Assembly (NCBI GenBank): GCA_013388425.1
Contig: JACADV010000071.1
Span: 1-64,000, forward strand
Direction: 5' to 3'
Origin: Thermoanaerobaculaceae bacterium
GTDB lineage: Bacteria; Acidobacteriota; Thermoanaerobaculia; Thermoanaerobaculales; Thermoanaerobaculaceae
Length of the DNA: 64,000 nucleotides
Shown: positions 5,152 through 14,993 of the stretch, in pieces
Layout of the letters: each line of letters opens with the position of its first letter
Numbering within the stretch: position 1 is the first letter of the stretch
Notes under the pieces: generated by a model
Told to the model about the DNA's origin: nothing
The model's database searches: none
The model's input: only the letters and a program-made list of their open reading frames with translations
Made by a program: the position numbers and the translations under genes

Positions 5152-5637
5152 TCAAGCTGGAGGGGCCAAGCTCCCGGGTGCGAGTTCGAGCTCCAGTACG
5201 CGACCCGTGACGGTGGCGGCCGCAACGCCCACGTGCACCCCCTCCGGCAGGTACGGGCGCAGGTCCACCAGCAGCACCCCGTCCTTTGGGTCGAGGCGCA
5301 CGCGGTCCTGGGCGAAACGCCGCAGGAGAGCAGCCGCCATCGACAGCGGCACCGGCACGCCCAGCGGGCCCCGCAACGACTCGATCCGACAACCCAGGAA
5401 CCGGCGATACACGCGCAGGTCCGTGGCGGTCACCACCAGCTGGGCCGGCAAGCCCTGCCAGGCGAGGCGAAGGGTGATCACGAGGGTGGGCCCCGCACCC
5501 GCGATGCGCACGCCCTGGAGCTGTTCCACCCGCCGCGGCAGTTCCCGCTCCGCGAGGCGCTCCAGGAGATCCAGGTCGCACCGGACCGAGAAGCCATCCC
5601 AGCTCAGGAGCGGGCGCGGCACCAGGTTCGCTGGCAC
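5152..5637 (-). CDS. hypothetical protein, 161 aa
   Basis: I do not recognise this protein. It has no signal peptide or membrane segment. An N-terminal helix-rich part (RLAERELPRRVEQLQGVRI) leads into alternating hydrophobic and polar stretches that look like a beta-rich lipid- or ligand-binding fold. Similarity to LmeA/DUF2993 phospholipid-binding proteins is possible but weak. The GTG at 5637 was chosen because a perfect TATACT box lies exactly 6 bases upstream (5644-5649), implying a leaderless mRNA. It probably heads a two-gene unit with lhgO and is divergent from the Kelch gene. Confidence 0.6.
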   Translation of the reverse strand: MPANLVPRPLLSWDGFSVRCDLDLLERLAERELPRRVEQLQGVRIAGAGPTLVITLRLAWQGLPAQLVVTATDLRVYRRFLGCRIESLRGPLGVPVPLSMAAALLRRFAQDRVRLDPKDGVLLVDLRPYLPEGVHVGVAAATVTGRVLELELAPGSLAPPA

Positions 5638-5820: not shown

Positions 5821-8800
5821 ATGCGGTGGAAGAAAACCATACTGATGGCCGGTTGTGTGGCAACGATGGTGGTGGCTGCCGCCCTGGCGCCGGCTGCCGA
5901 GCTGCCGTTCCCCACCAACTGGCAGGGGGTCAGGGCGCCCATGCCCTACGGCTTCTACTGGGGAGCCCAGACCACGTACAACGGGAAGATCTACATCTTC
6001 GGTGGCAACTCGGACTGGAACCCCGAGGGGCTCGTCACCCTGAACACGACGTTCATCTACGATCCTGCCACTGACACCTGGACGCGCGGCGCCAACATGC
6101 CCACGGCTCGGTATCTGGCCACCGCCACCGAGGTGGACGGCAAGATCTACGTGATCGGCGGCCGGACCCTGGATGCCAGTGGCAGCGGGGGGCCAGTGAA
6201 CGTCAACGAGGCGTACGACCCCGCCACCGACACCTGGACCACCAAGGCGCCCATCCCCCAGGCCATCCGTGGCCATGCCGCCGGTGCCTACAACGGCAAG
6301 GTGTACGTATTTGGCGGCAACACCGGTACCTACCAGAAAACTGTCCGGATCTACAACCCGGCCACCGACTCCTGGTCCACCGGGGAGGAGATGCCCAAAG
6401 CCCGGGCCTACGGGCAAGTGGTCTTCGTCCCCTCCAACAACCGCTTCTACTACATCGGCGGGGACAACGGCGGGTCCGTACCCTCCAAGTACTACGGCAA
6501 CGCCATCCAGTACGATCCAAACCTCAACGCGTGGCTCGACCCCACCGCCAACATGATCGACAAGGTGTCGCAGTTTGCCTGCACCCTCGATCCGGTGGCC
6601 AACAAGATTTACGTCTTTTCCGGCCTCATGTGGGACGTGGAAGCGGGCGAGGACCGCGGCACCTCGGTGAGTGTCCAGGTGCTCGACATCGCCACCAACA
6701 CCTTCTCCGACCAGACCAGTACCCTCTACCCGCCGAGCCCGCTCACCCGCACCAACGCCGCAGCCTCGTATCTCAACGGCAAGATCTACCTCACCCAGGG
6801 ATCGGTGGGCGGCACGGTGGTGGACGAACTGGACCTAGCCACGGGAAAGTGGTACCAACCGAACGCTTTCATCCCCACCTTCAACGTGGACCAGGGCAAC
6901 CTGGTGGCGGTCTCTGGCAAGCTTTACTTCCTCAATTCACTGGGCAACCAGGGAGTTTTCGCCTACGACCCGGCGACCAACGAGTGGAGCCAGACGGCAG
7001 CGGTGAACGCCCAACCGCGCCAGGCAGCAGTAGCCGCCGCCGCCAACGGCAAGGTGATCTTCTCGGGGGGGTGGATCGGCACGGGAACGACGGGCGACAC
7101 TCAAGCGTACGACCCCGAGAGCGACTCCTTTGAGACCCTGGCCGCCGATCCCACAGCGGCCCTGTGGTCCTTTGGCGACGTGGTAAACGGCACGTTGTAC
7201 GTTTTCGGCGGGAGCTCCACGGGCGAGGACCTGCTCACCACTGCCCGGGCCCTCGACCTCGCCACCAACACCTGGAGTAGCAAGGCGCCGCTTCCCGCCG
7301 GTATCATCCAGGCCACGGCCACAGCCATTGGCAGCAAGATCTACATCTGTGGAGGCTACGACAACAGTGCGGACAACGGGGTGCACGAAGAGCTGTTGAT
7401 CTACGACACCACCACCAATACCTACTCCACCGGTGCTGCCATGCCGAAGCCCGTGTACGCAGCAGCAGCAGTAGCCTACAACGGCAAGGTGGTGGTGTAC
7501 GGAGGCCGGCACCTCTACAACCAGGGCGGCACGATCTACTACTCCACCCCCGCCATCATCCAGGTCTACGACCCGGCCAGCAACACCTGGTCCATCGGCA
7601 ACTCCCTCTACTACCGCGAGGGGCACGGGGCGGCGCTCATCGGCAACAAGCTGTACGCCGTAGGCGGCACCGACCCCAACTTCCCCGAGAACCGCCTCGA
7701 CATCGTGGCCTTCTCCAGCGCTCCCCCGCCGCCGAGCCTGTCGCTGGCACCGGCCAGCCAGGACATCGTGGTGGGGGCGACCGGCACCCTCACGGCCACC
7801 ATCTCTGCGCCGCAGGCCACGGCTACCGCGGTGACGCTCACCTCCAGCAACCCCTCCATCGCCTCGGTGCCGTCCTCGGTCACCATCGCCGCTGGCGAGA
7901 CCTCGGCAAGCTTCGTTGCCACGGCCGTGGCGGTGGGTGGGCCAGTGACGATTTCGGCCGACTTGCCAGCGGAGTTGGGGGGCGCTACCGCCACCGCCCA
8001 GGTGACGATCACCGGCATCACGGTGGCCCTCAACCCAACTTCTCTGTCCATCCAGGCTGGCAGTTCCGGCAACCTCGAGGTGAACCTGAGCGCTGCGCAG
8101 CCAGTTCCGGTGGTGGTGGCTCTGGCCTCTTCGAACTCCGCCGTTGCCACCGTCCCAGCGAGCGTCACCGTGCCGGCTGGTTCGCTGCGCGCCTCGTTTG
8201 CGGTGACTGGCGTGGCAGCAGGCTCCGCCACGGTAACGGCCACCCTGCCCGCGGCCTTGGGCGGCGGCTCGGCCACAGCCGCGGTTACGGTCACCCAGCC
8301 ACCGACCGAGACCTACCGCTACCTCGTCCCATCGGTGGCCCACCTGCCTGGCAAGTCCGGGACCAAGTGGCGCACGGACCTGGCTGTGGTCAACCGCGGA
8401 TCCGCCAGCGCCAACCTCACCATGACCTACTACCCCCTCTCCGGCACCGCCGTCACCCGCACCGCGACCCTGGCCGCCGGGGCTACCACCGAGTGGCGTG
8501 ACATCCTGGTGAGTCTATTCGAGTTGGGGATTGACGCCAACACCAGCGGGACGCTCAAGATCGAGGCCAACGCTCCGGTCGGGGCCACCTCCCGCACCTA
8601 CAACGAGAAGACGGCGACCGAGACCTTCGGCCAGTACTACCCGGCCGTGGCGGAACCCTGGGCGTGGGGAGCCGGTCAGGTGGGCGTGCTGCCACAGCTC
8701 AAGAAGAACGCTGGCTTCCGCACCAACGTGGGGGTGCTCAACCTGGGCACCGCTGCCTGCGAGGTGGAAGTGAAGCTCTTCGGCGCTGACGGCAGCCAGC

Positions 8801-9717
8801 TCGGCAACACCGTCACCTTCACCGTGGCGGGCGAGCGGTGGTTGCAGCAGAACGACATCTTTGCCGCTGCCTCGGTGGCCTCCGCCGATATTGCCTACGC
8901 CACCGTCGAAGCCAAGACCGCCGGTGGCAAGATTTGGGCCTACGCCTCGGTCATCGACGCCACCACCGGCGATCCGACCACCATTCCACTCTTGGCCTCC
9001 CTGGGCACCACCACCCGGGTCGTTCCCTCGGTGGCCCACGCCCCGGGCAAGGCCGGCACCAAGTGGCGCACCGACGTGGCAGCGGTCAACCGCAACGCCA
9101 CGCCAGCCACCCTCACCTTGACCTTCGCCGACTACGTGGGGAGTGCGCCGGTCGTTCGTACGGCGGAACTTGCAGCCGGCGGCACCGTGGAGTGGCGCGA
9201 TATCCTCACGAGCCTCTTCGGCTATTCCGACACGGCCAGCGTCAAGGGCACCCTCACCATCGCATCCACGGTAGAGGTGGACGTGACCTCCCGCACCTAC
9301 AACCAGAAGAGCGCCACCGAGACGTTCGGTCAGTACTACCCGGCGCTGGCTGCCAACAGGGCGATCCACTCCAACGAGGGGGGCCTCCTCCCGCAACTCA
9401 AGAAGAACGCTGGGTTCCGGACCAACGTGGGGGCGGTAAACCTGGGGACGGCGGCCTGCACCGTGCTCGTCCGGCTCTTCGGAGCGGACGGCAGCGCCCT
9501 CGGGAACAACGTCACCATCTCGCTCCCGCCCGGCAAGTGGGTGCAGCAGGATGACATCTTTGCCGCGGCTGGGGTCGGAGGGGCGGACATCGCCTATGCC
9601 GTCGTCCAGGTCGTCAGCGAGGGTGGGGTTGCCTGGGCGTACGCTTCGGTGATCGACGCCACCACCGGCGATCCGACGACGATTCCTCTGCTCTATCCAT
9701 CCCTCGGTCTCTTCTAG
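5821..9717 (+). CDS. secreted Kelch-repeat protein with Ig-like and duplicated C-terminal domains
   Basis: The protein has 1298 residues. A signal peptide (about 1-26: positive MRWKK, hydrophobic core, APAA before ELPFP) is followed by Kelch repeats over about 30-635 with recurring GKIYVIGG-like and YDPATDTW-like units, enough for two beta-propellers. Residues about 640-825 hold two bacterial Ig-like (Big/invasin-type) domains. Residues 836-1298 are two copies of an approximately 232-residue module (see the repeat entry). No PEP-CTERM or IPTL sorting tail is present; it ends SLGLF. A near-ideal GGAAAGGAGG site precedes the ATG, and a strong terminator follows. Probably an abundant surface or secreted binding protein; ligand unknown. 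Confidence 0.85.
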   Translation: MRWKKTILMAGCVATMVVAAALAPAAELPFPTNWQGVRAPMPYGFYWGAQTTYNGKIYIFGGNSDWNPEGLVTLNTTFIYDPATDTWTRGANMPTARYLATATEVDGKIYVIGGRTLDASGSGGPVNVNEAYDPATDTWTTKAPIPQAIRGHAAGAYNGKVYVFGGNTGTYQKTVRIYNPATDSWSTGEEMPKARAYGQVVFVPSNNRFYYIGGDNGGSVPSKYYGNAIQYDPNLNAWLDPTANMIDKVSQFACTLDPVANKIYVFSGLMWDVEAGEDRGTSVSVQVLDIATNTFSDQTSTLYPPSPLTRTNAAASYLNGKIYLTQGSVGGTVVDELDLATGKWYQPNAFIPTFNVDQGNLVAVSGKLYFLNSLGNQGVFAYDPATNEWSQTAAVNAQPRQAAVAAAANGKVIFSGGWIGTGTTGDTQAYDPESDSFETLAADPTAALWSFGDVVNGTLYVFGGSSTGEDLLTTARALDLATNTWSSKAPLPAGIIQATATAIGSKIYICGGYDNSADNGVHEELLIYDTTTNTYSTGAAMPKPVYAAAAVAYNGKVVVYGGRHLYNQGGTIYYSTPAIIQVYDPASNTWSIGNSLYYREGHGAALIGNKLYAVGGTDPNFPENRLDIVAFSSAPPPPSLSLAPASQDIVVGATGTLTATISAPQATATAVTLTSSNPSIASVPSSVTIAAGETSASFVATAVAVGGPVTISADLPAELGGATATAQVTITGITVALNPTSLSIQAGSSGNLEVNLSAAQPVPVVVALASSNSAVATVPASVTVPAGSLRASFAVTGVAAGSATVTATLPAALGGGSATAAVTVTQPPTETYRYLVPSVAHLPGKSGTKWRTDLAVVNRGSASANLTMTYYPLSGTAVTRTATLAAGATTEWRDILVSLFELGIDANTSGTLKIEANAPVGATSRTYNEKTATETFGQYYPAVAEPWAWGAGQVGVLPQLKKNAGFRTNVGVLNLGTAACEVEVKLFGADGSQLGNTVTFTVAGERWLQQNDIFAAASVASADIAYATVEAKTAGGKIWAYASVIDATTGDPTTIPLLASLGTTTRVVPSVAHAPGKAGTKWRTDVAAVNRNATPATLTLTFADYVGSAPVVRTAELAAGGTVEWRDILTSLFGYSDTASVKGTLTIASTVEVDVTSRTYNQKSATETFGQYYPALAANRAIHSNEGGLLPQLKKNAGFRTNVGAVNLGTAACTVLVRLFGADGSALGNNVTISLPPGKWVQQDDIFAAAGVGGADIAYAVVQVVSEGGVAWAYASVIDATTGDPTTIPLLYPSLGLF
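8326..9714 (+). repeat. tandem duplication of a 232-residue module in the Kelch protein
   Basis: Unit 1 is residues 836-1067 (8326-9021) and unit 2 is residues 1068-1298 (9022-9714), with a 696-base offset. Both contain VPSVAH.PGK.GTKWRTD, TEWRDIL.SLF, ATETFGQYYPA, LPQLKKNAGFRTNVG and SVIDATTGDPTTIPLL. Parts are nearly identical in DNA, for example around 8699 and 9395 and around 8951 and 9649, so the duplication looks recent or gene-converted. Confidence 0.9.
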
Positions 9718-9742: not shown

Positions 9743-9778
9743 GAGGGCTGCGGGCAATACCCGCAGCCCTCGTTTTTT
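9743..9778 (+). terminator. rho-independent terminator after the Kelch gene
   Basis: A perfect 12-base stem GAGGGCTGCGGG (9743-9754) pairs with CCCGCAGCCCTC (9760-9771) around CAATA, followed by G and six T (9773-9778). It lies 25 bases after the stop and is the clearest intrinsic terminator in the window. Confidence 0.93.
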
Positions 9779-9836
9779 GCGAGCCATACCGCAGGGGAAA
9801 GCCCCTGGCGCTACCGCTGCGCGGCTCCCTCGCCCC

Positions 9837-10820
9837 TCACACCATGTAGGCCACGGCGAATCCAATTTGCGCCGTCATCATCATCAGGTACATGTGCGTC
9901 CAGGAGGGGTGGTTCTCGGTGGTGGCCAGGGCGTCGGGATCCCGCAGAAGCAGGCAGCAGGTGAACACACCCCACAGCGTCAGGGCACAACCGAGCACCA
10001 CCAACACCGTGGCGTTCCCAGTGAGAATTGGCAGCGACGGGTCGGCCGGGTCCCGCAGCACGGTCCCGAGCGGCATCAAGAGCCAGGGGAAGACAAAGGA
10101 AGGCGCGATCATCCACGCGGCTTTGCGCACCCCGTACTTCACTGGCAGGGTGTGGACGCCGCTCGCCGCATCCCCCGCCATGTCCGAGAAGTCCTTGGTA
10201 CTGGAGGCTCCCAGCAGGAACAGGCCAAAGACCAGACCGATCCACCAGGCCTCGGCGTGCCAGACACTGGCCACCATCCCCCACCCAGCCACCTTGAGCC
10301 ACATGCCGCGCGGAATGGCAATGGTGACGTTGGCCCAGATGCCAAAACGCTTCGTCCGCCCGAAGCTTGGCCACGAGTACACCCAGGTGGCAAGGGCGGC
10401 GCCCACGTAGAGGAACAGCACGGCGTGGTCCCCCAGGGGCGCCCGGAGCCGATCCGCGAGCGTGACCGCCGGGTAGGGCACCACGAGCCACACCGGCACG
10501 GTCCCCAGCACGTACAGCACCAGCGCCAACCACCACGCCTGGCGGACACTCACCCGCCCCGAAGGGATGGGCCGCCTTGGCTTGTTGATCCGGTCGGCCT
10601 CCAGGTCTGCAATCTGGTTGAGCGTGTTGGAGGCGGCGTTGAGGAGCGCCGCGCACAGGCTACCCAGCACCACCGTAAGCACCACGGACCAACTCAAGGT
10701 ACGCGTGGGATCGGGGTTGTGGGCGGAGCCGAAGGCGCAGACTGCCCCCGAAACAATCCCCAACAGTGGCGGCAGCAGGGTGAAGGGCCGATCCAGATCC
10801 ACCGCATCGCGCCAACGCAT
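9837..10820 (-). CDS. UbiA-family prenyltransferase
   Basis: This 327-residue polytopic enzyme should transfer a prenyl chain from prenyl diphosphate to an acceptor. The first Asp-rich motif lies in NQIADLEADRINKPRRPIPS (around residue 65) and the second in KDFSDMAGD, as in the UbiA/chlorophyll-synthase/GGGP-synthase superfamily. The NKPxRPIxSG form resembles chlorophyll synthase and archaeal UbiA members more than UbiA itself, but the acceptor cannot be read from sequence. ATG 10820 was preferred over GTG 10826 because GGAGG lies 5 bases before it. It is 2 bases after the fused kinase gene, so its prenyl donor may come from that protein. Confidence 0.88.
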   Translation of the reverse strand: MRWRDAVDLDRPFTLLPPLLGIVSGAVCAFGSAHNPDPTRTLSWSVVLTVVLGSLCAALLNAASNTLNQIADLEADRINKPRRPIPSGRVSVRQAWWLALVLYVLGTVPVWLVVPYPAVTLADRLRAPLGDHAVLFLYVGAALATWVYSWPSFGRTKRFGIWANVTIAIPRGMWLKVAGWGMVASVWHAEAWWIGLVFGLFLLGASSTKDFSDMAGDAASGVHTLPVKYGVRKAAWMIAPSFVFPWLLMPLGTVLRDPADPSLPILTGNATVLVVLGCALTLWGVFTCCLLLRDPDALATTENHPSWTHMYLMMMTAQIGFAVAYMV

Positions 10821-10822
10821 AC

Positions 10823-12193
10823 TCACCTCCCCATCATGACGAGCAGTCCCCCAGCCAGCGCAGCGGCCACCAGTGTCAAGGTGAGATTTACCGCGTCATG
10901 CCCAACATCCCGAGAAAACTGCCCCTCCACGAGGGCAGCAGCAAACCCGCAGATCCCGCACACCACGGCGGTGCGCCACTCCACCAGGGCCAGGGCAGCG
11001 GCAAGCCCGACCAGCCCGGCGGCAGCCGCGGCCGAGGCCAGGGTACCCACCGCCGAGAGGGCCCCGGGCGTGCCGGCAGCCACCGGCTGCAACCGGGGCA
11101 GGGTGTAGGCACGGCGCGAGAAGGCCTTGCCCACCTCCGACCCGGCCGTGTCCGCAAGCGCCGCCGCTAGAGCCGCCACCGCCATGGCCCGCAGCACCCA
11201 GGCGTCGGCAAAGGGCATGAGCAGCGTCGCGGCAAACACCACCACCCCCTTGGCCGCCACGTTGCCAAGGCCCCGCTGCCCGCCGTGCCCTTCGGCGATG
11301 CCCAGCGCGACCTTCTTCCGCCACCCCACCCGGGTCACCGCCGTCCCTGCGGCAAGAAAGAGGAAGAGCACGAGCCACAGCCGCACGCCGCCGAAGACCC
11401 AGGTCACGCCCCCCAGAAGATAGGCACCAGCAATGCCAGCGGGGGAAAGGACCCGCTTCCACGCAGCCAGGAGGGCGCAGCCCCCGTTGACCGCCAGCGC
11501 CACCACGAGGGTTTCCGGGAGAGCGCCACGCCAGGCCTCCAGCCCCCCTCCACCCACCGAGAGGGAGAAGAACGCCAGCGCTCCCAGCGAGGGGGCCAGC
11601 AGGTTGTCATCCACCGCCAGGGGGGCTCCCTCCACCAGGGCAAAAACCAGGGCCGCCACGGCGCCTGCGGCAACGAGCCATGTCCAGACAGGGCCGACCT
11701 CGGTGCTGGAAAGCGGTACGGTGAAAACCCGGGTGAGGAACGCCAGGTACAGCACCTCTCCCCCCACGAGGGCCCCGAGGAACGCCCCCACCAGCCCCGC
11801 CCAGGTTTTTCGCGGGTTCCAGGGGAGCCGGCGACGCCCCCACTTCATCCCGGCCACTCCGGCTGCCGCGTCACCACCAGCCAACAACCCCCACCCCAGG
11901 GCAGCTAGCGACAGGTCCCGCCAGAACACGAGGATGAGAGCGCCGACGACCACGGGATAGAGGAGCACCCCGCGGTCCGAGGCACCCTCCCGCGCGCTCC
12001 GCATGCGGTGGCCCACCACGCGCGGGAGCACGAGCCAGTTGTGGAGGAACGCCGCAAGGGCGCAGAGCGCCGCCTGCCACCAGAGGAGAAAGGGCAGGGC
12101 CAGGGCAAACACCCCCATGCTGGCGTGGACGAGCTTGCGAGCCGCCTCCCCAGCCGCCAGGGGCCGGCCGCGGATGGCTGCAAGACCCCTCAC
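10823..12193 (-). CDS. fused CTP-type prenol kinase (VTE5/DGK1-like) and DUF92 prenyl-phosphate kinase (VTE6-like)
   Basis: This is a 456-residue membrane protein. The N-terminal half (1 to about 215) has polyprenol/phytol kinase signatures: RKLVH at 19-23, GD at 107-108 in GGDAAAGVAG, K129-T130 with G133 in NPRKTWAG, and a late VDDNLLAP. The C-terminal half (about 235-456) is DUF92, with ADTAGSEVG and GTPGALSAVGT. In plants and cyanobacteria VTE5 makes phytyl phosphate and the DUF92 protein VTE6 makes phytyl diphosphate. One chain could therefore perform both phosphorylations for the adjacent UbiA enzyme. Start GTG 12193 overlaps the epimerase stop as GTGA and has GGAGG 5 bases upstream. Domain calls are good; substrate is inference. 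Confidence 0.8.
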   Translation of the reverse strand: MRGLAAIRGRPLAAGEAARKLVHASMGVFALALPFLLWWQAALCALAAFLHNWLVLPRVVGHRMRSAREGASDRGVLLYPVVVGALILVFWRDLSLAALGWGLLAGGDAAAGVAGMKWGRRRLPWNPRKTWAGLVGAFLGALVGGEVLYLAFLTRVFTVPLSSTEVGPVWTWLVAAGAVAALVFALVEGAPLAVDDNLLAPSLGALAFFSLSVGGGGLEAWRGALPETLVVALAVNGGCALLAAWKRVLSPAGIAGAYLLGGVTWVFGGVRLWLVLFLFLAAGTAVTRVGWRKKVALGIAEGHGGQRGLGNVAAKGVVVFAATLLMPFADAWVLRAMAVAALAAALADTAGSEVGKAFSRRAYTLPRLQPVAAGTPGALSAVGTLASAAAAAGLVGLAAALALVEWRTAVVCGICGFAAALVEGQFSRDVGHDAVNLTLTLVAAALAGGLLVMMGR

Positions 12194-13155
12194 GACCGCC
12201 TCCGCACCTTTTCCCGCCAGTACACCAGGGTGTCGCGCAGGGTCGCTGCGAACGGCACCTCGGGCCGCCAACCGGTGGCCCCCTGGAACTTATCGCCGGC
12301 CCCCTCCAGCACCGGGATTTCGGCCGGCCGCAACCGCGCCTCTTCCACCACCACCTCCACCCGGGCAGGACTCATGGCCAGCAGCTCCTCGAGCACGCTG
12401 CGCAAGGTCCGGGAACGGCCGCTCGCCACGTTGTACGCCTCGCCCGCCTCCCCCCGACTCGCCGCCAGCCAGTACGCCCGCGCTGCATCCCGCACGTCCA
12501 CGAAATCGCGGCTCACGTCCAGGTTGCCCACCGCCAGGCGCGGCGGTTGCATCCCCGCTTCGATTTCGGCAAGCTGCCGGGCAAAGGCGGCAATGACGAA
12601 CTGGTCCGATTGCCCCGGCCCGCAGTGGTTGAACAGCCGCAGCCGCACCGTGCGCACACCGAAGGCACGGAAGTACTGGAAGCCCAAGAGATCCACCGTC
12701 GCCTTGGAGACTGCGTAGGGGGAAACGGGGCGGAAGGGTTGCTCCTCGGTAATTGGCAACTCGCTGGGCTTCACGATTCCGTACGATTCGGCCGAACACG
12801 CCAGCACCACCGTGGCGTCCAGTTGCAGCTGCCGCACCGCCTCGAGCAGGTGCAGCGTTCCCACTGCGTTGACCTGCAGCATCTCCGTGGGTGTCTGCCA
12901 GGAGCTGGAGACGGAGGAAGAGGCGGCGAGATGAAAGATCACGCCCGGTTGGCACGCCTGCAGCACGCGCAGGAGCGAAGGCGGGTCCAGGAGGTCGCCT
13001 TCCAGGAAGCGGATGCTCTCAGCCGGCGCTCCCAGCCTGGAGGTGTTCGAGCGCCAGCGGCGCAGACCGAACACCTCCAGCTCGGGGTGCAGGACAAGCT
13101 GCTGCGCAAGGTGAGACCCCACGAAGCCGGTGATTCCGGTGATGAGCACCCGCAC
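12190..13155 (-). CDS. NAD-dependent epimerase/dehydratase (GDP-mannose dehydratase/RMD-like)
   Basis: This extended short-chain dehydrogenase has 321 residues. It has the Rossmann motif GITGFVGSHLA, the catalytic serine in CSAESYG and the YAVSK tyrosine-lysine pair. The C-terminal ATGWRPEVPFAATLRDTL resembles GDP-mannose 4,6-dehydratase or GDP-4-keto-6-deoxymannose reductase. The likely role is nucleotide-sugar synthesis for surface glycans. It heads a three-gene coupled operon with the prenol kinase and UbiA, so a glycolipid or lipid-carrier link is conceivable. The GTG start is set by TACCAT 6 bases upstream. Confidence 0.8.
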   Translation of the reverse strand: MRVLITGITGFVGSHLAQQLVLHPELEVFGLRRWRSNTSRLGAPAESIRFLEGDLLDPPSLLRVLQACQPGVIFHLAASSSVSSSWQTPTEMLQVNAVGTLHLLEAVRQLQLDATVVLACSAESYGIVKPSELPITEEQPFRPVSPYAVSKATVDLLGFQYFRAFGVRTVRLRLFNHCGPGQSDQFVIAAFARQLAEIEAGMQPPRLAVGNLDVSRDFVDVRDAARAYWLAASRGEAGEAYNVASGRSRTLRSVLEELLAMSPARVEVVVEEARLRPAEIPVLEGAGDKFQGATGWRPEVPFAATLRDTLVYWREKVRRRS

Positions 13156-13161
13156 GCGCGC

Positions 13162-13167
13162 ATGGTA
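13162..13167 (-). promoter_or_regulatory. -10 box TACCAT, leaderless promoter of the epimerase-kinase-UbiA operon
   Basis: TACCAT, then GCGCGC (6 bases), then the GTG at 13155. There is no Shine-Dalgarno before the GTG and no convincing -35. Confidence 0.5.
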
Positions 13168-13215: not shown

Positions 13216-13989
13216 TCAGGCAACGCCGGCGCCCGGTCCGAAGAGGCGAGCAAAGGTGCTGCTCGTCACCGCCTCCACTTCGGCCAGGCTCGTCGATCGC
13301 TCGCGGGCCACGGCTTCGCCCACGAGCCGCACCAAGGCCGGTTCGTTGCGCTGCCCCCGGTGCGGCACTGGCGCCAGGTAGGGGCTGTCGGTTTCCAGCA
13401 AGAGACGGTCCAGCGGCAGCGCAGCCACCATCGCCTTGACCTGTTCCGCCTTGGGAAAGGTCACCATCCCAGCAACCCCCACGGCCAAGCCGCGCGCTAC
13501 CACCTCCTGGGCCGCCTCGACACCGGCGGTAAAGCAGTGAGCCACACCCCGCACACCTTCCTGGGCGGCCAGAGCTGCCAGGAAATCGGGCCAGGCCTCG
13601 CGCTCGTGCAGCACCACCGGCAAGCCGCTCTCCACAGCCAGCGCCAACTGCCACGCCAAGGCCCGCCGCTGGTCCTCTCGCGGCGCAATTTCGTAGTGGT
13701 AGTCCAGACCGATCTCGCCGATGGCCACCACCCCATCCCGACCGACGAGCCCCTCCAGGCGGCGTTTGAGCGCCGCATCCAAAGCAGCCGCCTCGTGAGG
13801 GTGACACCCCACGGCTGCCACCACCCGCTCGGGGAAGCGATCCCGAAGCGCCACGGTCCGCTCCAAATCGCCGGGGCCCGTAGCGGGGGCAAGGATTCGC
13901 TCCACCCCCGCCTCCTCGGCCCGCGCAAGCACCCCCTCCACTTCACCGTCCTGGAACATGGCCAGGTGCGCGTGGGAATCGATCACCAC
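13216..13989 (-). CDS. tatD: TatD-family metal-dependent hydrolase
   Basis: This 257-residue TIM-barrel nuclease family member has all metal-ligand blocks: IDSHAHL at the N-terminus, GEIGLDYHY, LPVVLHERE, VAHCFTAG and LLETDSPYLAP. TatD proteins are Mg-dependent DNases, with 3'-5' exonuclease activity in E. coli. The GTG at 13989 is preceded by AGGAGGAT. It is divergent from the Gfo/Idh gene, with about 70 bases of shared promoter region. Confidence 0.9.
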   Translation of the reverse strand: MVIDSHAHLAMFQDGEVEGVLARAEEAGVERILAPATGPGDLERTVALRDRFPERVVAAVGCHPHEAAALDAALKRRLEGLVGRDGVVAIGEIGLDYHYEIAPREDQRRALAWQLALAVESGLPVVLHEREAWPDFLAALAAQEGVRGVAHCFTAGVEAAQEVVARGLAVGVAGMVTFPKAEQVKAMVAALPLDRLLLETDSPYLAPVPHRGQRNEPALVRLVGEAVARERSTSLAEVEAVTSSTFARLFGPGAGVA

Positions 13990-14057: not shown

Positions 14058-14993
14058 GTGAGCATCGCCCCCATCCCCGTGGTGGTCGTGGGTGTGGGCC
14101 ACCTGGGCCGGCATCACCTGCGCCTCGCCGCCACCCTGCCGGGGTGGCAGTGCGTGGGGGCGTACGATAGCGACGCGGCCCGTCTCGCTGAAGTGTGCGC
14201 CAGTTTCAACGTCCCTGCCCTCACGAGCCTCGACCAAGCCGTCGAGAAGGGCGCTGCTGCCATCGTTGCCACCCCCACGACGACCCACTGTGCGGTGGCC
14301 TCCCGGTTTCTTGCCGCCGGCCGCCACGTGCTGGTGGAAAAGCCCATCGCTGCCAGCGTGGCCGAGGCCAAGAAGCTGCTCCAAACTGCGACCGCCCACG
14401 GGGTGGTGCTGGGGGTGGGGCACGTGGAGTTCTACAACCCCGCCGTTCAGGCGGTGCTCGCCCACGACCCGCGGCCGCGCTACCTGGAGGCGCAGCGCCT
14501 GTCTCCCTTCACGCGGCGCTCCTTGGACATCGATGTGGTGCTGGACCTGATGGTGCACGACCTGCAGATCGCCCAGGCGCTGTGCCGCAGCGCGCCGGTG
14601 CGCGAAGTTCGCGCAGCCGGCGTGCCGGTGCTCTCCGACCGCACCGACCTGGCCAATGTGCGCCTGGAGTTTACCGACGGAACAGTGGCCAACCTGACCG
14701 CTTCCCGGGTCTCCTCCGAGCGGGTGCGCAAGCTGCGCATCTTTGCCATTGACGAGTACTTCTCCATCGACTACGCCGAGCAGAGCGTGAGCGCCTACCG
14801 GCTGGAACGCCAGGGGGAACCCCGGATCGTAGCGGTGGATGTCCAGGTGGCCAAGGGGGAGCCGCTGGCGGCCGAGCACCTCGCCTTCCAGGCGGCGTGC
14901 CGGGGTGTGCCAACACCCTTCGTGGACGCGGCCGCCGGCACCGCCGCCCTGGAGACGGCTACCGCTATCGTGGCAGCGATCCAGCAGCGCTGA
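14058..14993 (+). CDS. Gfo/Idh/MocA-family oxidoreductase
   Basis: This 311-residue NAD(P)-dependent sugar-type dehydrogenase has the nucleotide fold with VVVGVGHLGRHH at the N-terminus, the family EKP motif in HVLVEKPIA (near residue 95) and a C-terminal beta-sheet domain with VVLDLMVHDLQIAQ. The exact substrate is not visible. Related enzymes oxidise UDP-GlcNAc in lipid A pathways of some diderms (GnnA) or other nucleotide sugars. The start is set by the promoter 8 bases upstream. Confidence 0.8.
   Translation: MSIAPIPVVVVGVGHLGRHHLRLAATLPGWQCVGAYDSDAARLAEVCASFNVPALTSLDQAVEKGAAAIVATPTTTHCAVASRFLAAGRHVLVEKPIAASVAEAKKLLQTATAHGVVLGVGHVEFYNPAVQAVLAHDPRPRYLEAQRLSPFTRRSLDIDVVLDLMVHDLQIAQALCRSAPVREVRAAGVPVLSDRTDLANVRLEFTDGTVANLTASRVSSERVRKLRIFAIDEYFSIDYAEQSVSAYRLERQGEPRIVAVDVQVAKGEPLAAEHLAFQAACRGVPTPFVDAAAGTAALETATAIVAAIQQR

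Follow-up and report, generated by a model that had tools for sequence, protein, structure and literature searches.

The window (the whole 64,000-nucleotide stretch that was analysed) carries a compact series of minus-strand genes encoding a nucleotide-sugar SDR, a two-domain membrane protein (the fusion) and a UbiA-type prenyltransferase (Table 1); the strand of these three genes had been absent from the preliminary description of this DNA. According to that description, a sugar-nucleotide epimerase gene overlapped the fusion gene upstream and the UbiA gene followed it by 2 bases. Both statements were confirmed: the stop of the SDR gene and the start of the fusion gene share 4 bases (12190-12193), and the better UbiA start is an ATG at 10820, 2 bases past the fusion TGA. 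The GTG of the fusion gene and the ATG of the UbiA gene are each preceded by a GGAGG 5 bases upstream. With the gmd model, the SDR reached 151.8 bits against a cut-off of 415, and therefore no specific reaction was assigned to it. A plasmid search found no plasmid.

Table 1. Positions of the operon genes, the fusion domains and associated genes within the window.
Feature	Position	Strand	Evidence or remark
TatD gene	13216-13989	-	precedes the SDR gene in the minus-strand series
Nucleotide-sugar SDR (epimerase/4,6-dehydratase superfamily, GDP-mannose-dehydratase-like)	12190-13155	-	GDP_Man_Dehyd E 4e-71; Epimerase E 8e-55
Fusion protein, 456 aa, GTG start; proposed prenol kinase + prenyl-phosphate kinase	10823-12193	-	profile matches, motifs
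Fusion N-terminal domain, residues ~1-222; CTP_transf_1 superfamily, Sec59/VTE5-like motif layout	11528-12193	-	CTP_transf_1 E 1e-3; hhalign to C-terminal half
Fusion C-terminal domain, residues ~226-456; DUF92 / COG1836 / VTE6 family	10826-11518	-	DUF92 E 2.1e-33
UbiA-type membrane prenyltransferase; distinct, highly conserved subfamily	9837-10820	-	PF01040 E 4.1e-33
Homologue of a conserved ~180-aa protein; no Pfam match	5152-5637	-	tblastn up to 45% identity, E 4e-39

The fusion had been described as a CTP-type prenol kinase and a DUF92 domain in one chain, and the profile search gave unequal support to its two halves. The DUF92 match at residues 239-423 was strong, with 116.2 bits against a gathering score of 27.5 for PF01940, and DUF92 was matched by all 28 orthologues (best E 3.5e-55); the NCBIfam equivalog TIGR00297 scored 110.6 bits, below its cut-off of 205.85. 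The CTP_transf_1 match at residues 89-182 was weak (19.4 bits against a Pfam gathering score of 24) and was obtained for 6 of the 28 orthologues (E up to 0.05, best 1e-7). The DUF92 part of the description and the intact motifs stand, and two tandem kinase-like domains of the CTP superfamily are probable, although the profile match of the N-terminal half is weak. All the motifs quoted earlier are present in the protein, namely ARKLVH, GDAAAG, WNPRKT, VDDNLLAP and ADTAGSEVG. When the 28 orthologues were inspected for loss of active-site residues, R19, K20, H23, D108, N126, K129, E188, D196, N197, D348, T349 and E353 proved invariant; the conserved positions of the alignment correspond to RK..H, GD, N..K, E and DN-type in the N-terminal domain and to K, RG, DT..E, GT.G..S, E and N..T in the DUF92 domain. 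Profile comparison with hhalign showed that the two halves are homologous (E 6e-5) and paired D108 with D348, E188 with E423 and N197 with N436. From this homology and the matching motif positions, the halves appear to belong to a single superfamily and to be arranged in tandem, both with the full set of motifs. The structure model of the fusion was confident (pLDDT 88.6), and a whole-chain fold search with this two-domain model returned no significant match, probably because two similar domains share one chain. The match of highest probability, CdsA (4q2g; 0.72, E 0.26), was likewise not significant. The CTP superfamily also includes the cytidylyltransferases CdsA and CarS; CdsA therefore shares the superfamily of the fusion but differs from it in being a single-domain protein and a cytidylyltransferase rather than a kinase. 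The fusion is neither a chance product nor an assembly artefact, because 28 of the 60 relatives and 120 of the 396 genomes surveyed from the phylum carry it at full length. A partial fusion match in one further genome (G007) was dropped, as Pfam gave it no support.

The UbiA protein has the features of its family, namely the PF01040 match, two Asp-rich motifs and an all-helical fold. Both Asp-rich motifs (NQ..D...DR.NKP and KDF.D..GD) are invariant, as is a distinctive C-terminus (ENHPSWTHMY), and the protein is better conserved than the fusion, with 58-79% identity (set A2) compared with 30-58% (set A1). Its scores lie far under the NCBIfam cut-offs of all named UbiA functions (chlorophyll, DGGGP, tocopherol, quinone, haem). 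The ChlG/BchG models gave 101.8 bits against 313 (PRK07566) and 85.6 against 212.3 (TIGR01476), the DGGGP synthase model 78.9 against 296, the homogentisate phytyltransferase model 59.6 against 226, and the polyprenyl-phosphate phosphoribosyltransferase model 22.1 against 207. The UbiA structure model (pLDDT 90.9) had its closest folds in archaeal DGGGP synthase (6m31/7bpu, E 1e-10). By sequence, the nearest solved relatives are the same DGGGP synthase entries together with chlorophyll synthase (9sau), but the identity is ~20-30% and the C-terminus of the UbiA subfamily is unique to it.

The proximity of UbiA to DGGGP synthase by fold and sequence, together with the presence of CarS and CdsA in the CTP superfamily, would suit an archaeal-type ether lipid pathway in which UbiA acts as a DGGGP synthase and the fusion contributes, through one of its domains, a cytidylyltransferase of the CDP-archaeol type. 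We consider this very improbable, given the DGGGP synthase score cited above and a fusion C-terminal domain that belongs to DUF92, a known kinase family. Archaeal-lipid synthesis is further disfavoured because GGGP synthase is nearly absent: a search for PcrB/GGGPS in the UbiA-bearing genomes yielded nothing convincing except in one genome (G056), the other matches being fragments of 42-81 residues with 20-26 bits. Geranylgeranyl reductase was considered as a discriminating marker and dropped, the family being too widespread. Other UbiA proteins in these genomes comprise haem O synthase, MenA, MqnP-like and polyprenyl-phosphate phosphoribosyltransferase-like enzymes. The window's own genome, which is 83% complete, had only two of them (haem O synthase and the polyprenyl-phosphate phosphoribosyltransferase-like protein), and neither MenA nor MqnP was found in it, as would be expected if these bacteria used the UbiA of the operon as their quinone or haem prenyltransferase, with the kinases as no more than its suppliers. 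However, UbiA-bearing relatives possess separate MenA (G003, G041), MqnP/UbiA-type (G040, G018) and CtaB-like (G003, G040, G041, G050) proteins, and the UbiA scores are far under the MenA/MqnP/CtaB cut-offs, so that such a housekeeping role appears highly unlikely.

The preliminary description had also coupled the fusion to UbiA, and the genome survey bore this out. Among 396 Acidobacteriota genomes, the fusion was present in 120 (including 4 in which it is split at contig ends, which were counted as positive) and the UbiA subfamily in 107, and all 107 UbiA-bearing genomes had the fusion; 13 genomes had the fusion without UbiA and 276 had neither. In the closer set of 60 relatives, where an absence of co-occurrence was looked for, the strong-match sets of the two proteins were identical (28 genomes each). 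The genes stood in direct tandem in 61 pairs, with UbiA downstream on the same strand, and the pair was kept even where the genes sit apart or on separate contigs, e.g., in family f7. A plain Fisher test gave p 9e-83, a value that ignores phylogeny and was not taken as a probability. On a Der GTPase tree of 58 relatives, the fusion and UbiA changed state jointly 5 times, at least 3 of them on well-supported branches, and neither changed separately; with so few events, the sign test gave p 0.25. A single deletion can remove adjacent genes together, which weakens the joint changes as evidence. The link between the fusion and UbiA is strong yet not statistically independent of ancestry, and a functional dependence between them is likely, although not proven. 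Because no genome has UbiA without the fusion, the distribution suggests that UbiA needs the kinase and not vice versa, and in the 13 genomes without UbiA the fusion must serve something else. One of these 13, the likely phototroph G148, lacks the UbiA subfamily but carries a ChlG/BchG-type UbiA above the family cut-off, a pattern that would fit a supply of different UbiA enzymes by such kinases. The 13 genomes without UbiA, together with standalone DUF92 proteins in other families of the phylum, would agree with a general recycling function in which the fusion returns free farnesol, geranylgeraniol or polyprenol of whatever origin to the prenyl-diphosphate pool and UbiA is one of several consumers. 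We regard this as unlikely, since it leaves unexplained both the absence of UbiA without fusion (0/107) and the frequent tandem arrangement. The standalone DUF92 proteins, of ~250-320 aa, were seen in families f22 and f44, as opposed to the fusion elsewhere in Acidobacteriota.

In a sample of loci that over-represents the window's class, an SDR gene was immediately upstream of the fusion in 55 of 75 evaluable loci, lptD was upstream in 35 of 62 and an RmlB-like gene was found in 22 of 68; RmlA/RmlB genes lie upstream at many loci, and fusions without UbiA mostly keep the SDR/lptD arrangement. The association of lptD with the fusion is positional, because each of the 11 genomes tested had lptD, and in the eight of them without the fusion it mostly maps apart from these genes. 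The SDR and lptD genes may be linked to the fusion by neighbourhood and nothing more. Next to the fusion, family f7 has genes for a mannose-1-phosphate guanylyltransferase and for a GT2 with relatives among the lipid-linked sugar transferases. These surroundings, at loci with and without UbiA, would accord with an N-terminal domain acting as a polyprenol (dolichol-like) kinase for sugar carriers tied to the SDR/lptD genes, the DUF92 half and UbiA acting on the same lipid. A carrier requires a monophosphate, a need that a second kinase in the same chain would work against, and UbiA falls outside the polyprenyl-phosphate phosphoribosyltransferase subfamily by the score given above; we rate this role as quite unlikely.

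Several other neighbours were recorded. In G040, the UbiA gene comes immediately after a gene for polyprenyl diphosphate synthase (L095:7968-9926). At six f7 loci (L046, L050, L053, L055, L056, L057), divergent GT2-methyltransferase and mannose-1-phosphate guanylyltransferase genes stand next to the fusion, with a Der GTPase gene usually next after it; an f7 neighbour cluster considered as a possible partner was rejected, as it corresponds to this Der GTPase. The ~180-aa protein directly follows UbiA in several relatives. In the window, the homologue of this usual follower of UbiA is separated from it by an opposite-strand kelch gene (5821-9717, plus strand). The encoded kelch-repeat protein has 1298 aa and, in its C-terminal part, two copies of a VPSVAHxPGKxGTKWRTDxAVVN-type repeat; repeats related to these are also encoded close to the operon in other relatives. 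The convergent kelch and UbiA genes have a strong GC-rich hairpin between them, followed by a T-run on the plus strand (9750-9790). Divergent from the TatD gene and the operon lies a plus-strand gene (14058-14993) encoding a GFO/IDH/MocA oxidoreductase nearest to UDP-GlcNAc 3-dehydrogenase (161 bits against a cut-off of 450), with a homologue of 56% identity near the operon in L040.

Our preferred reading, to which we give a probability of roughly 55%, is that the fusion is a bifunctional prenol/prenyl-phosphate kinase integral to the membrane and feeding a dedicated UbiA for the synthesis of a prenylated envelope (glyco)lipid, with the activities, prenyl chain, acceptor and product predicted from motifs, families and context. 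The N-terminal half would convert an isoprenoid alcohol to its monophosphate, probably with CTP, and the DUF92 half would convert the prenyl monophosphate to the diphosphate, which UbiA would then use to prenylate a dedicated acceptor. An envelope (glyco)lipid intermediate would be the most likely product because the operon adjoins nucleotide-sugar SDR genes and often lptD, and a sugar-lipid is our best guess. The alternative raised in the preliminary description, a sugar-linked or other lipid, has accordingly gained weight, because the majority of fusions, also where UbiA is absent, have SDR genes upstream, often behind lptD. Extended to an undescribed, lineage-wide pathway of Acidobacteriota that starts from free prenol instead of a prenyl diphosphate, phosphorylates it twice in one protein and delivers it through a new UbiA subfamily to a prenylated outer-membrane glycolipid, the proposal is tentative and somewhat unlikely.

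In plants, VTE5 is a phytol kinase. Like the plant VTE5/VTE6 couple, the operon combines a member of the VTE6 family with a proposed two-step prenol phosphorylation feeding a UbiA-type enzyme; in plants, however, the two kinases are separate proteins, whereas here they would share one bacterial chain, and the score of the present UbiA does not place it among the tocopherol enzymes. VTE6 is the DUF92 phytyl-phosphate kinase of Arabidopsis (PMC9782597), and its function was first suggested through plant-prokaryote comparative genomics (PMC3223725, PMC9782597). The earlier suggestion of phytol salvage from phototroph mats is not supported as the main role, because related operons come from Acidobacteriota of soils, groundwater, sediments, caves and sludge (habitats as given in the record titles), and UbiA lies far under the chlorophyll synthase and homogentisate phytyltransferase cut-offs. 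Within the window, there was no sign of phototrophy.

The fusion itself is already known: a COG0170-COG1836 fusion (arCOG02245), Mbar_A3310 of Methanosarcina barkeri, was described as a predicted isoprenoid kinase (Makarova et al. 2015, PMC5898192). According to the published description, it also has a Sec59-like N-terminal domain followed by DUF92, with the catalytic aspartates kept; it differs in being archaeal and in its reported context, uppS instead of UbiA and SDR. The linkage of the fusion to UbiA appears to be new, and a literature search conducted mostly outside subscription journals found no paper tying a DUF92 fusion to a UbiA partner or to Acidobacteriota. To our knowledge, few prenol salvage kinase genes are known, and knowledge of the second step, the prenyl-phosphate kinase, is especially thin. 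A bacterial two-step kinase in one chain would, if the proposed activities are true, be a convenient model enzyme. The seemingly strict dependence of the UbiA subfamily on the fusion suggests that a product has been missed in a phylum that is large and poorly cultivated, and which acceptor this subfamily prenylates becomes a directly testable question.
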